A stretch of DNA of 60,211 nt from Nitrospirota bacterium (lineage in GTDB: Bacteria > JACPQY01), in contig JACPQY010000045.1 of assembly GCA_016190245.1 (NCBI GenBank), forward strand, positions 1 through 60,211, given 5' to 3'. Shown piece after piece: positions 1-22,185 of this stretch; position 1 is the stretch's first letter, and each line of letters begins with the position of its first letter. The notes beneath the pieces were generated by a model. It worked only from the letters and a program-made list of their open reading frames with translations. It did no database searches and was not told the origin of the DNA. The position numbers and the translations under genes were made by a program.

Positions 1-690
1 CAACTCATAGTAATCGCCATGTCGGAACGAGCCGTCACGTTTCTGAATGAGTCCCCCCATGCTACCATCGGTCAACCTGATTTTCTGCAAAGATGATACT
101 GTTCGGGCAACATAAGCGCCTTGTTTAGCCTTTTCAATTGTTTGTGGCCCTTTCCGCATTCCCTCTTCAACACCAACCCGCTTACACTCGAAAATGGCGA
201 ACGGTCGGCGACATAGCGATACAACCGAATAGCACCCCTTGTCCTTGCCAAGAGTGTCGAGATATGCATTTAGAAAATTATCTCCGAGATCGCAAATGGT
301 GCAGGAGTTTCTGAGAATCAGGTCATTACTCAGTAATGCGCTCGTCTTGAAAGATGTCGGAGGAATAGCAAAAGGGGCAAACTGTTTATTATTAGCAATC
401 TTCCTCGCTGTGAGGGGAAGTTCATCTCTCTTGAACTCAATTTGCGCAAGCGGTGTTGATGGGTGAAGGCTGTACTCGACATTGTGCATGATGTCATTGT
501 TGGCAAACTCCGGGAGCGGTCTCTCTATGGCAATGTTTCTCTCAAAGCCCCAAGACTTGAGAGCATAGAACGTAATAATCTCGACAATGGTACCTAGTGC
601 CCGCCCAGCGGCTTTCTTGGAATCTTTGGCATAGTGAAACACTTTTTCGGTGAGGACCTTTTGGAGTTGGTCAACTGATGGATATGACAT
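1..690 (-). CDS. Restriction-endonuclease-like protein, partial (integron cassette 2)
   Basis: An uninterrupted reading frame of 230 codons starts at the ATG at 690 and runs off the left edge, so the C-terminus is missing. The N-terminal 60 residues look helical. Two ExK-type motifs are visible: IEFKRDE (residues 84-90) and IFECKRVG (166-173). The second is followed by a lysine-rich helix, GPQTIEKAKQGAYVA (181-195). E168-x-K170 fits the core of a PD-(D/E)XK nuclease, and the overall look is of a type II restriction enzyme, but I cannot name the specificity. The gene is the second cassette of the leftward integron array: it starts 42 bases after the attC core. AAGGGAAAACGAAGA upstream serves as a weak ribosome site. 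Base composition is clearly AT-richer than the GC-rich chromosome to the right, as expected for an acquired cassette. No partner methylase is visible; one could lie beyond the edge. Confidence 0.72.
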   Translation of the reverse strand, partial: MSYPSVDQLQKVLTEKVFHYAKDSKKAAGRALGTIVEIITFYALKSWGFERNIAIERPLPEFANNDIMHNVEYSLHPSTPLAQIEFKRDELPLTARKIANNKQFAPFAIPPTSFKTSALLSNDLILRNSCTICDLGDNFLNAYLDTLGKDKGCYSVVSLCRRPFAIFECKRVGVEEGMRKGPQTIEKAKQGAYVARTVSSLQKIRLTDGSMGGLIQKRDGSFRHGDYYEL

Positions 691-726
691 TCTTCGTTTT
701 CCCTTTCTGGTCTTCATATTCTTTGA

Positions 727-786
727 GGCTAACGCCTTGCCGCTCAGCCGCCGCCGTAGGCGGTCGGCTGCAGCGGCAGGTTAGAC
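727..786 (-). other. attC recombination site (59-base element) of cassette 1
   Basis: Read on the minus strand the site begins GTCTAAC (786-780) and ends GTTAGCC (733-727), which are the R-double-prime and R-prime core boxes of an integron attC. Between them the two arms CTGCCGCTGCAGCCGACC and GGCGGCTGAGCGGCAAG fold on each other around a small TACG centre. One arm carries a single unpaired G, the extrahelical base that gives attC strand polarity. The 60-bp length is classic. The site starts 10 bases after the Mrr stop codon, as in real cassettes. The outer box GGTCTAACC is complementary to the TTAGACC that begins cassette 1 at 1714, as required if this attC belongs to that cassette when circular. 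Confidence 0.88.
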
Positions 787-1714
787 CGCAGGCGGCTACG
801 CGCGAAAGTCATCGAAGAACTCTACGTCCACCGAGAACGTTCTCACCGGCGACAAGCCGAGCTCGATTTCCTCGAGCATGCCGACAAGTTTCTCGCCATC
901 GACCAATTCGATTGCGGGGACGCCATCTCGCAACGCCTCGCGTTTGGCTTCTACCGTAAAGGTGCCGGTGGTCAAGATGATGCCCTTGTCGGCGCGTCCC
1001 ATCATTGCACCCCGGAAGTCGCGCACTTGACTCGGACTGACGACTCCCGCGTACTTCTTGCATTGGAACAATACCTTGAAGCTGACAAGCGCGTTCACCT
1101 GCAGTATGCCGATACCGTCGATGCCCCCATCTCTAGATTTTCCGGTGACAGTTACCTGTTGGAATCCGGACTCTCGTAAGAGTCTCTGGCAGAATCGCTC
1201 GAAGCCCGCCGCCGGCAAACCACGGAGAAGATCAAGCACCTGTTCGCGATGATTTGCAGAAACGGTAGACGCCGCCCCTTCTGGGGGACGCTGCTCCTCA
1301 CCTTCGTCCTCAATCTGGTCGCTCGGTTCGCTGGCGGCGGAGTGGAACTGCGCATGCACTTCCCTGAAAAGCGTGACGGCGGCTCCGTGGGTTAGTGGAC
1401 CGACGGACCGCCCTTTATCAGTAAGCGACCACACCCCTCGACGGGAGGCGTCGATGAGACCAGCCTTGGCAAGATAGAATCTCGCCCACGCCACTTGGTT
1501 GTCGAACCGAGGCATGCCATTAGAGGTAACTTCGGTCTGCGTCTCCTCCGTAAGTTCGAGTTTGGAAGCGACCTGTTCGCGCACCTCCGAGGGACGTGCT
1601 GAGCCGCCAAGATGCCTCAGGGCATCAAGAACGGGCCCAAAGTAACGCACGAACATCGGGCCTTGCGTCTCAGTCACGGAACGTGTCATTCGTCTTTCCT
1701 GCTCAGCGGTCTAA
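733..1714 (-). mobile_element. Integron gene cassette 1 (mrr cassette)
   Basis: The cassette runs from TTAGACC at 1714, just after the G of the attI-side core site, to the G at 733 that closes its attC. It is 982 bp long, contains one gene (Mrr) and one attC, and is oriented away from the integrase gene. This is the normal geometry for the first cassette of an integron. Cassette 2 starts at 732 with TTAGCC and continues past the left edge. Confidence 0.82.
796..1689 (-). CDS. mrr: Mrr-family restriction endonuclease
   Basis: This 297-residue protein has the two Mrr domains in order. An N-terminal winged-helix domain spans about residues 10-100 and ends in a typical ...GVWSLTDKG turn. An acidic, proline-containing linker spans about 120-145. 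The PD-(D/E)XK catalytic domain spans about 150-285. Visible catalytic elements are FERFCQRLL (163-171), DGGIDG (187-192) and the QCKKY box (209-213), followed by VRDFRGAM and GIILTTGTFT strands. Family members cleave modified or foreign DNA and need no partner methylase. The length is normal for Mrr. The gene is the sole gene of integron cassette 1. Its ATG lies 25 bases inside the cassette, so it probably relies on a promoter in the integron platform near 1744-1772. The main uncertainty is which DNA modification it recognises. Confidence 0.92.
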   Translation of the reverse strand: MTRSVTETQGPMFVRYFGPVLDALRHLGGSARPSEVREQVASKLELTEETQTEVTSNGMPRFDNQVAWARFYLAKAGLIDASRRGVWSLTDKGRSVGPLTHGAAVTLFREVHAQFHSAASEPSDQIEDEGEEQRPPEGAASTVSANHREQVLDLLRGLPAAGFERFCQRLLRESGFQQVTVTGKSRDGGIDGIGILQVNALVSFKVLFQCKKYAGVVSPSQVRDFRGAMMGRADKGIILTTGTFTVEAKREALRDGVPAIELVDGEKLVGMLEEIELGLSPVRTFSVDVEFFDDFRA

Positions 1715-1715
1715 C
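1709..1715 (-). other. attI-side core site (integrase platform / cassette junction)
   Basis: The minus strand reads GTTAGAC here, a GTTRRRY integron core site. Recombination between G (1715) and TT (1714) would have inserted cassette 1. The stretch 1716-1820 between this core and the integrase promoter should contain the rest of attI. I see no second core box there, which is normal because attI sites are poorly conserved. Confidence 0.75.
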
Positions 1716-1743
1716 TATTCATTGTCCGCTTTTGCATACCACG

Positions 1744-1772
1744 CAGGTATCATGGTCTTGGGTGCGAGTCAA
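1744..1772 (-). promoter_or_regulatory. Candidate cassette promoter (Pc)
   Basis: On the minus strand TTGACT (1772-1767) is followed after exactly 17 bases by TACCTG (1749-1744), preceded by a TG extended -10 dinucleotide. It points into the cassette array from the platform, where Pc usually sits. The -10 box is a weak match, so this is only a candidate. Confidence 0.4.
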
Positions 1773-1820
1773 GTTGGAGGATGACACCCTAGTACGCCCA
1801 GAATATGGCGTGATGGGGTG

Positions 1821-1848
1821 TTGACATGCACTCTGGGATGGTTATTAT
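1821..1848 (+). promoter_or_regulatory. Integrase promoter (Pint)
   Basis: A perfect -35 box TTGACA (1821-1826) is separated by 16 bases from TATTAT (1843-1848). Transcription would start near 1855. This makes the ATG at 1826, which lies inside the -35 box, unusable and favours the ATG at 1865 for the integrase. Confidence 0.7.
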
Positions 1849-1864
1849 CCATCATGGTAAGCGG

Positions 1865-3136
1865 ATGAATACGGTGGATGAATCATCGCCCTCGCCCGGG
1901 ACAACAGGATTCGGTGCGTTTCTTGTCCAACGAGGGCTGGTTCCCGAACCCAAAGTGAGATTCTTTGTCCACTGGGTCGAGCGATACCTGACATCCGCCG
2001 AAGCCTCGCCCCCGCTCGCTCCAGCCGGCATCGCCCGTTTTCTCGAGAGCCTGGGACGAGAGAAGGAACCCTGGCAAGTCCAGCAGGCCAAGGAGGCCCT
2101 CCGCCTGTTTTCCTATTTCACGGAGACGCTCAAGGGCGGCGGACAGGCCGCGAGCGACGACGTCTCAGAACAGGAATGGGCGGCGGCGATGAATGAAACC
2201 CGCAGGGTGCTTCGCCTGAAGCACATGAGCTACCGGACGGAACGGACGTACATCAACTGGGTGCGATCGTTCGCGTCCTTCTTGAAGCACAAGGCCCCCA
2301 CGCAGGTCCAGGTCGAGGACACCCGACAGTTTCTCAGCCACCTAGCGGTGGAGCGCAAGGTCTCGGCCTCCACGCAGAATCAGGCGTTCAATGCCCTCCT
2401 GTTTTTCTTCCGAGACGGCCTCGCGCGCGAGGTGGGGGATCTGTCTCAAACCGTGCGCGCGCGGATCCGCCGGAAACTGCCCGTGGTGTTGAGCCGCAGG
2501 GAAGTGGGGCAGGTGCTCGATCTCATGCCTGAACCCTACCGTCTGATCGCCCGATTCATCTACGGATGCGGTCTGCGGTTGCAGGAATGTCTCGACCTGC
2601 GGGTGAAGGACGTGGATTTCGAGCAGGGGGCGCTCACCGTGCGCAGCGGCAAGGGGGACAGGGACCGGCAAACCGTGCTGCCGGAATCGCTCCACTCCGA
2701 CTGGCTGGAACACATCGGGCGGACGAGAAAGCTCTTCGACCGGGACCGCGCGGAGGATCGGCCGGGCGTCTACCTGCCGGACGCACTGGAACGGAAGTAT
2801 CCCAGCGCGGGGAAGGAATGGGCTTGGTTTTGGGCCTTCCCCGCCTCCTCCCACTCCATCGATCCCCGCCTCCGAATCATCCGCCGGCACCACCAGCACC
2901 CGGGCAGTCTCCAACGATACTTCCGAGAGGCGGTCCGAAAGTCGGGCATCGCAAAGTCCGCGACGATCCACTGCCTCCGTCACAGTTTTGCCACGCATCT
3001 CCTCGAACACGGATACGACATCCGGACAATCCAGGAATTGCTCGGGCACAAGAATCTCGAGACCACGATGATCTACACGCACGTGGCCGTCAAGAATCGC
3101 CTGGGCGTCCGCTCACCGCTGGACAGCCCCATCTGA
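1865..3136 (+). CDS. intI: Integron integrase (IntI-type tyrosine recombinase), N-terminally extended
   Basis: A site-specific tyrosine recombinase of 423 residues from the chosen start. The core-binding domain (about 110-205) is followed by the catalytic domain with Arg in CGLRLQE, His-Leu-Arg in HCLRHSFATH, LGHKNLETT and the nucleophile in IYTHV. Between the catalytic patches lies the diagnostic IntI insertion: LERKYPSAGKEWAWFWAFPA followed by IDPRLRIIRRHH. This insertion contacts attC hairpins and separates integron integrases from XerC/D. An extra N-terminal domain of roughly 100 residues (GFGAFLVQRGLVP... onward) precedes the usual IntI start. The extension is rich in aromatic residues and could be another SAM-like DNA-binding fold. 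Start choice: the longest frame begins at 1826, but that codon overlaps the -35 box, so 1865 (MNTVDES) is preferred. The cassettes are divergent, attI lies between, and no SOS box was seen. Confidence 0.9.
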   Translation: MNTVDESSPSPGTTGFGAFLVQRGLVPEPKVRFFVHWVERYLTSAEASPPLAPAGIARFLESLGREKEPWQVQQAKEALRLFSYFTETLKGGGQAASDDVSEQEWAAAMNETRRVLRLKHMSYRTERTYINWVRSFASFLKHKAPTQVQVEDTRQFLSHLAVERKVSASTQNQAFNALLFFFRDGLAREVGDLSQTVRARIRRKLPVVLSRREVGQVLDLMPEPYRLIARFIYGCGLRLQECLDLRVKDVDFEQGALTVRSGKGDRDRQTVLPESLHSDWLEHIGRTRKLFDRDRAEDRPGVYLPDALERKYPSAGKEWAWFWAFPASSHSIDPRLRIIRRHHQHPGSLQRYFREAVRKSGIAKSATIHCLRHSFATHLLEHGYDIRTIQELLGHKNLETTMIYTHVAVKNRLGVRSPLDSPI

Positions 3137-6323: not shown

Positions 6324-7769
6324 TTGGCCGCCGAATCCATCAACAAGAAGGGGATGCTCGTCGCCGGCGGATGGGTTCTGCCCTCCCCCTCACGGAAGAG
6401 TCTCGAGGTGAAGAATCCCTATTCCGGCGAGGTCGTGGGCGTCCTTCCAGTGGCCACGGCTGCCGACGTGGAGGAGGCGGTATCCGCCGCGGAGCGGGCG
6501 CTCCCCGTCCTCGGCAAGCTGCCCGCGCACAGGCGGTCGGCGATCCTGGAGGAGACGGCGAAGCGGATCGAGGCGCTCGGGGAAGAGTTGGCACGCACGA
6601 TCACGCTCGAGTCCGGCAAGCCGATCAAGGACGCGCGGGGCGAAGTGGGTCGCGCGGTTCAGACGTTCAGGTTTGCCGCGGGCGAAGCCCTCCGCATCCA
6701 TGGGGAGACCGTTCCCATGGATGCCCACAAGGCCGGCGAGGGCCGCTTCGGGTTCTGGATGCGAGTCCCCGTCGGGATCGTGGGAGCCATCACGCCGTTC
6801 AACTTCCCGCTGAATCTGGTCGCCCACAAAGTCGCGCCGGCGATCGCGGCCGGGTGTCCTGTGGTTCTGAAACCCGCCTCGCAGACACCCCTCACCGCGG
6901 TGCGTCTCGGAGAGATCTTGCTCGAGTCCGGCCTCCCCGAAGTCGCGCTGAATATCGTATTCGGCGGGGGAGGCACGGTGGGCGAGTGGATCGTGGGTCA
7001 TCCGAAGATCGCCAAGATTTCGTTCACGGGGAGCCCGCCGGTGGGTCGGCGGATCCTCGAACGGGCGGGACTGAAAAGAGTCACCATGGAACTGGGATCC
7101 AGCAGCGCCGTGGTGCTGGACGAGGATGCCGACCTCGAAAAGGCGCTTCCCCGATGCGTGCTGGGGGGATTCGCGCAGGCCGGCCAGTCGTGCGTTTCGG
7201 TCCAGCGGATCTTCGCTCACGAAAGGATCTACGCGAGGGTCTGCGAATCGCTCGTGCGGGCGGTCGAACGACTACGCGTGGGGGATCCGCTGCGCGACGA
7301 TACGGACGTGGGACCGATGATCGCCGAAGCGGAGGCCGCGCGCGCCCAGGCATGGATCGAGGAGGCCGTTGGGCAGGGGGCCGAGAAACGGCTCGGGGGA
7401 ACGCGCGAGGGCGCCGTGCTCGCCCCAACCGTACTTGTGGGCGCAAACAACGGCATGAAGGTCATGAAGCACGAGATCTTCGCGCCCGTGGTCGCCATCG
7501 CCCCATTCAAGACTTTCGACGAGGCGCTCGGACTCGTGAACGACTCGATCTACGGCCTCCAGGCCGGCGTTTTCACGCGGGACGTCGGGAAGGCCTTCCG
7601 CGCCATCCGCGAGCTGAACGTAGGCGGGATCATGATCAACGACGTGCCCACGTATCGCGTAGACCACCAGCCCTACGGCGGCGTCAAAGAGAGCGGCCTC
7701 GGCCGCGAGGGCCCCCGCTTCGCCGTTGAAGAGATGACCACGATCAAGATGGTGGTGTTCAACTTGTGA
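6324..7769 (+). CDS. Aldehyde dehydrogenase family protein
   Basis: A second full-length ALDH (481 residues) not closely similar to the one at 3363. Visible are TPFNFPLNL, FTGSPPVG, MELGSSSAV (general-base Glu near 255, with an unusual SSS after it), GQSCVSVQRIFAH (catalytic Cys near 289), EIFAPVVAI and GGVKESGLGREG. The ELGSSS variant and the DVPTYRVDHQPYGG C-terminal segment resemble the branch containing lactaldehyde and non-phosphorylating glyceraldehyde-3-phosphate dehydrogenases; the exact substrate is open. The start is TTG at 6324 with GAGG six bases upstream; an ATG at 6354 would remove ten residues. The gene converges on the TldD gene, with a GC-rich inverted repeat in the 96-bp gap. 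Confidence 0.9.
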   Translation: MAAESINKKGMLVAGGWVLPSPSRKSLEVKNPYSGEVVGVLPVATAADVEEAVSAAERALPVLGKLPAHRRSAILEETAKRIEALGEELARTITLESGKPIKDARGEVGRAVQTFRFAAGEALRIHGETVPMDAHKAGEGRFGFWMRVPVGIVGAITPFNFPLNLVAHKVAPAIAAGCPVVLKPASQTPLTAVRLGEILLESGLPEVALNIVFGGGGTVGEWIVGHPKIAKISFTGSPPVGRRILERAGLKRVTMELGSSSAVVLDEDADLEKALPRCVLGGFAQAGQSCVSVQRIFAHERIYARVCESLVRAVERLRVGDPLRDDTDVGPMIAEAEAARAQAWIEEAVGQGAEKRLGGTREGAVLAPTVLVGANNGMKVMKHEIFAPVVAIAPFKTFDEALGLVNDSIYGLQAGVFTRDVGKAFRAIRELNVGGIMINDVPTYRVDHQPYGGVKESGLGREGPRFAVEEMTTIKMVVFNL

Positions 7770-21975: not shown

Positions 21976-22112
21976 TCCCCGGGCCGTCCAAAAACCACTC
22001 CCCCCGCCCTCGACTCACTCGGAGTCGTGCCCGCCTCACCCCCCGCCGCCTGCTACCCCCTTGCTCCCCACTGTCGTTGGGGCAAGTACTTGTAACTATC
22101 GGAAAAAACATG

Positions 22113-22185
22113 CTCCAGCGGTAGGACTCGAACCTACAACCCGCCGGTTAACAGCCGGCCGCTCTGCCAATTGAGCTACGCTGGA
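22113..22185 (-). tRNA. tRNA-Asn (anticodon GTT)
   Basis: On the minus strand the acceptor TCCAGCG (22185-22179) pairs with CGCTGGA (22120-22114). The D-arm GCTC...GAGC, anticodon stem GCCGG/CCGGC with loop CTGTTAA, and T-arm GTAGG-TTCGAGT-CCTAC are all perfect. The anticodon is GTT. CCA is not encoded (GCA follows). A T-rich run just after the gene may terminate it. Confidence 0.97.

Follow-up and report, generated by a model that had tools for sequence, protein, structure and literature searches.

A chromosomal integron with restriction-type first cassettes and an integrase carrying an extra N-terminal domain

Judged from its sequence, the left end of contig C31 is a genuine and well-formed chromosomal integron, the first cassettes of which carry restriction-type genes. 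We consider it quite likely that a sedentary chromosomal integron is seen here from its platform end and that its two restriction-enzyme cassettes serve as a reshufflable defence store. The DNA analyzed here (the window, the whole stretch of 60,211 nucleotides) is the start of C31 and belongs to a genome of 3.29 Mb in 86 contigs that is 85% complete; since the window begins where the contig begins, position 1 is an assembly end. The sole Rfam family match in the window is a tRNA-Asn(GTT) at 22112-22185 on the minus strand. The initial annotation had read the beginning of this DNA as an integron array, and this reading holds: an integrase, an attI and an attC are present with correct polarity, and all of the coordinates given for them were correct.

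The integrase gene, intI, lies on the plus strand at positions 1826-3136 (436 aa as listed), and its product scores 396.5 bits with the integron integrase model TIGR02249 (cut-off, 265 bits). Because the -10 element of the probable promoter is located at 1843-1848, translation more likely starts at an ATG at position 1865, which yields a protein of 423 aa. This promoter (TTGACA-16-TATTAT, positions 1821-1848, plus strand) agrees with the consensus at 11 of 12 positions and is proposed from the consensus match only; a LexA box was looked for by eye only. Among solved structures, the V. cholerae integrase (2a3v, E 2.9e-75) is the best relative of IntI; residues 125-433 align to it, with no gap in the additional helix region specific to integron integrases. 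The catalytic residues R251, K276, H382, R385, H408 and Y417 are invariant or nearly so among 44 relatives.

The attI region (minus strand) occupies positions 1709-1825, its extent towards intI being approximate. Its core, GTCTAAC on the plus strand, is found exactly at 1709-1715, where it had been placed by the initial annotation. When the three attI copies of the genome (on contigs C31, C83 and C39) are compared, 18 to 19 of 20 bases agree on the side of 1714|1715 facing the integrase; on the side facing the cassettes the copies diverge, with 4 to 9 of 20 bases shared. The G^TT crossover of attI is predicted at this identity cliff, between 1714 and 1715.

The first attC site, attC1, lies at 727-786 on the minus strand, with the outer boxes R'' (GTCTAAC, 780-786) and R' (GTTAGCC, 727-733). 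It folds at -26.9 kcal/mol (z = -5.3), and none of 200 shuffled sequences reached this value. The bottom (plus) strand forms a single long stem with two extrahelical bases, a T and a C, on the 3' arm; an attC-like hairpin with extrahelical bases at 727-786 had been set beforehand as one part of the test of the integron proposal, and it was seen. In a structural scan of the 60-kb window, in which outer boxes complementary at 6 of 7 positions and a single hairpin below -15 kcal/mol were called for, attC1 was the only match; when the whole window was dinucleotide-shuffled 60 times, six matches arose in all, or about 0.1 per 60 kb. A covariance model (R2) built on three attC sites of contig C78 and one of contig C12, without attC1, finds positions 725-788 with 34.0 bits (E = 3.7e-7), the runner-up scoring 12.6 bits. 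Being independent of attC1, the covariance-model match is the strongest of these tests. The attC sites of C31 and C78 visibly form one family, with a mean column identity of 74%, and in relatives attC-like hairpins number 20 in 160 kb on the cassette side of intI and 3 in 177 kb on the other side. There is one attC in the window, and the contig end falls inside cassette 2. Outside the examined loci, the genome was searched for attC with model R1 only.

If a cassette was formerly circular, its 5' end is expected to be complementary to the outer box of its own attC. In the Mrr cassette, 10 consecutive bases of the 5' end (GTTAGACCGC) are complementary to the outer box R'' of its own attC, bearing out the complementarity noticed in the initial annotation. 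Together with the attI crossover, this own-end match sets cassette 1 at 733-1714 (minus strand, complete), its ends lying at the G^TT of attI and of attC1, and has cassette 2 run from position 732 past the contig end; the part present in the window (1-732, minus strand) starts with TTAGCC at the attC1 crossover. The open reading frames of both cassettes are directed away from the integrase, as had been claimed. On C78, the corresponding own-end matches are 9 and 10 bases for the HEPN and PemK cassettes and 3 bases for the BrnT cassette, and a cassette with a SnoaL-like gene on C83 has a match of 5 bases.

Cassette 1 contains an intact gene (796-1689, minus strand) for an Mrr-type type IV restriction endonuclease of 297 aa. 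Its product matches the Pfam families Mrr_cat (2.2e-28) and Mrr_N (2.8e-26), both far above the gathering score, and the mREase_IV model (8e-23). Like other Mrr type IV enzymes (PF04471 with PF14338), it has both domains across its whole length, and its plasmid-borne relatives reach an identity of up to 62%; what sets it apart from other Mrr genes is that it is borne on an integron cassette, the one that follows attI directly.

Both cassettes had been proposed to encode DNA-cutting enzymes. This stands for cassette 1 with its Mrr domains; for cassette 2 the support is weaker and comes from a REase_II match, an E-x-K motif and a methyltransferase gene behind a phage homologue. The gene in cassette 2 (1-717, minus strand) is a probable restriction endonuclease gene, of which the first 239 of about 389 aa lie in the window. 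Its product had no match in Pfam, NCBIfam or the PDB, and no relative was found in 386 genomes or in the phage and plasmid records searched. In IMG/VR, three contigs (L152, L153 and L154), identical over the 10.7 kb compared, carry a homologue of 389 aa, and the cassette 2 protein is 83% identical in amino acids to that encoded at L152 5001-5717. A fourth contig (L155) has a relative with 50% identity. At the DNA level, the identity to the phage gene is 78% over 724 bases and sets in just within the cassette boundary, 7 bases ahead of the ATG. L152 encodes an integrase and a CI-like repressor, a terminase-like match is interrupted by internal stop codons in one of the three records, and these contigs look like temperate phages. 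No attC was seen in the DNA surrounding the phage copy, and the idea that this copy is itself part of a cassette array was rejected.

In both phage groups, an adenine methyltransferase gene (PF05869) is located directly behind the homologue, with overlapping stop and start codons (L152 5001-6763, likewise in L153 and L154; L155 536-2313), and the two genes form a putative restriction-modification pair, apparently an undescribed one. As the phage homologue is directly trailed by a methyltransferase, cassette 2 probably represents a truncated pair of this kind, the methyltransferase of which would lie past the contig end. The full-length phage homologue gives a weak match to REase_II in PADLOC (E = 8e-4), and the family has an E-x-K motif within an invariant FECKR block; a structure model of the family was too poor for a fold search (pLDDT 51). 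We regard the cassette 2 protein as a probable, moderately supported, type II-like nuclease. A search with window positions 1-1900 gave no match to another contig near the left end and did not find the remainder of cassette 2; searches of the 85%-complete genome for the C-terminal part of the homologue and for the methyltransferase found neither on another contig, although an empty answer of this kind is weak.

Other integrons are present in the same genome, and the occurrence of several intI genes, decayed ones included, within one genome has been described before (PMC2426708). A second integron on contig C78 (L007 5750-10749) has at least three attC sites, at 6939, 7541 and 8212. Its integrase is intact-looking (431 aa, 52% identical to the C31 IntI, with about 20 aa inserted in frame), and its cassettes carry a HEPN-like gene (Hypoth_ymh), genes for a PemK toxin and its ribbon-helix-helix partner, and a gene for a BrnT toxin accompanied by a small partner open reading frame; a PIN and Phd-like pair is located beyond the last attC. 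Two decayed integron ends have the same attI as the window. That on C83 (L006 6405-7530) has an integrase that has lost its middle and retains its two ends, a first cassette that is seemingly little more than a long attC, and attC-like sites around the SnoaL-like gene. That on C39 (L005 6880-7600) is a short remnant. C12 bears a single, isolated attC (L135 1501-1565) that belongs to the same family (51 bits) and is far from any intI found; judged by eye, small open reading frames beside it resemble a toxin-antitoxin pair.

From these features, a working scheme can be proposed for the C31 integron. IntI would recombine circular cassettes, through their folded attC hairpins, with the double-stranded attI. 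Since this attI lies upstream of the integrase's own gene, cassettes would stack leftward with their genes directed away from intI. The Mrr protein of cassette 1 would cut DNA bearing foreign methylation, and the cassette 2 enzyme would cut DNA that lacks the methylation set by its partner. Most likely, both would act on incoming foreign DNA, and the array could then be a defence store in which genes can be reshuffled. Such a role is plausible, and the HEPN, PemK and BrnT cassettes on C78 fit it; the SnoaL-like gene is a non-defence cassette gene of the genome, and two intact-looking cassettes are too few for statistics on defence enrichment.

The nuclease cassettes might instead be selfish or stabilizing modules, retained because restriction-modification addiction or Mrr toxicity makes them costly to lose rather than because they defend the host. 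Restriction-modification genes are able to act as addiction modules. Toxin-antitoxin pairs abound in the C78 array; they may stabilize arrays, and toxin-antitoxin cassettes can do so in large arrays (PMC9668308). However, Mrr is a stand-alone type IV enzyme with no dedicated antidote, so addiction does not explain cassette 1, and selfish and defensive roles are compatible with each other. We judge this explanation unlikely.

Another view takes the integrase and its cassettes as relics with no current activity. It draws on the decay of the two other integron ends, C83 and C39, and on the fact that intI pseudogenes are common (PMC2426708). The C31 integrase, however, has a full open frame with all of its catalytic residues, a promoter-like site and an intact attI core next to it; the Mrr frame is intact as well, and the 10-base match between the ends of cassette 1 is a sign of recent insertion. 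Decay at C31 is rather improbable. As for a chance hairpin beside an unrelated tyrosine recombinase, palindromes are common in GC-rich DNA, and the shuffled windows did yield an occasional comparable match (about one in ten). The integrase score far above its cut-off and the identity cliff in three attI copies speak against it, and it was ruled out by the independent covariance-model match, the shuffle scan and the own-end match of cassette 1, leaving it a negligible probability. Our preferred reading remains a chromosomal integron with restriction-type cassettes that would serve as a defence store.

The integrase has an additional feature. Residues 22-108 (1889-2149, plus strand) precede the portion that aligns with 2a3v, and this extra N-terminal segment is common to most of the closest IntI relatives (from Nitrospirota, Desulfobacterota, Spirochaetes and Omnitrophota) and absent from many IntI proteins of other genomes. 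In profile-profile comparisons, it matched the core-binding domain of the same proteins (P = 9.4e-10) and that of short integrases (P = 2.5e-9), and controls with three catalytic-domain segments gave P values of 0.12 to 0.45. The structure model has four helices in the extra domain and in the core-binding domain alike. From the profile comparison and the four-helix model, residues 22-108 are most likely a duplicated core-binding domain, a proposal that rests on the profile comparison with its controls, as the fold comparison covered the whole IntI model only. Searched by itself, the segment had no sequence relative among solved structures. Our literature search found no paper naming this domain, which is not proof of novelty.

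A deltaproteobacterial IntI clade about 120 aa longer than others has been described and attributed to a gene fusion (Nemergut et al. 2008, PMC2426708). The integrases of this clade 15 resemble ours in length: both run to about 420-440 aa and bear some 100-120 extra aa. However, the extension was termed a fusion there, whereas the segment studied here appears to be a duplicated core-binding domain.

Sedentary chromosomal integrons have been reported as anti-phage libraries in V. cholerae (Science 2025 eads0768) and V. parahaemolyticus (Nat Microbiol 2025), according to PMC12444791, in which defence cassettes published in 2025 are referred to for Vibrio and for mobile integrons. The C31 integron resembles the Vibrio ones in having a chromosomal IntI, an attI, attC cassettes and cassette genes of restriction or abortive-infection-like types. 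In contrast to Vibrio, the present host is little sampled, its several integrons are scattered with short visible arrays, its IntI has an extra domain, and the system is known from sequence alone. Cassettes with restriction or toxin-antitoxin genes are commonly found in both bacteria and archaea (PMC9668308), and integrons and cassette arrays also occur in phage genomes (PMC9892861). As in those phage integrons, phages and cassettes appear here to have exchanged genes, DNA methyltransferase genes among them; unlike them, the cassette 2 gene is not flanked by an attC in its phage copy. As defence-library integrons were published in 2025, the C31 integron adds a good example to a known type of system rather than representing a new one.

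What may be new is the duplicated core-binding domain in the integrase, and a restriction-modification-type gene common to a cassette and to temperate phages. A broader proposal, which we put forward tentatively and hold to be doubtful as a whole, is that a large IntI clade uses two core-binding domains in tandem, with the additional copy perhaps acting as a clamp on attI or on the attC hairpin, and that the integron of this host acquires restriction-modification genes of temperate phages as a reshufflable defence store. Our analysis extends the published picture of defence-library integrons to a little-sampled bacterial lineage. A cassette gene with 78% nucleotide identity to a temperate-phage gene gives a hint at the origin of such cassettes, and the extra segment of some integron integrases can be given an identity, most likely that of a duplicated core-binding domain.
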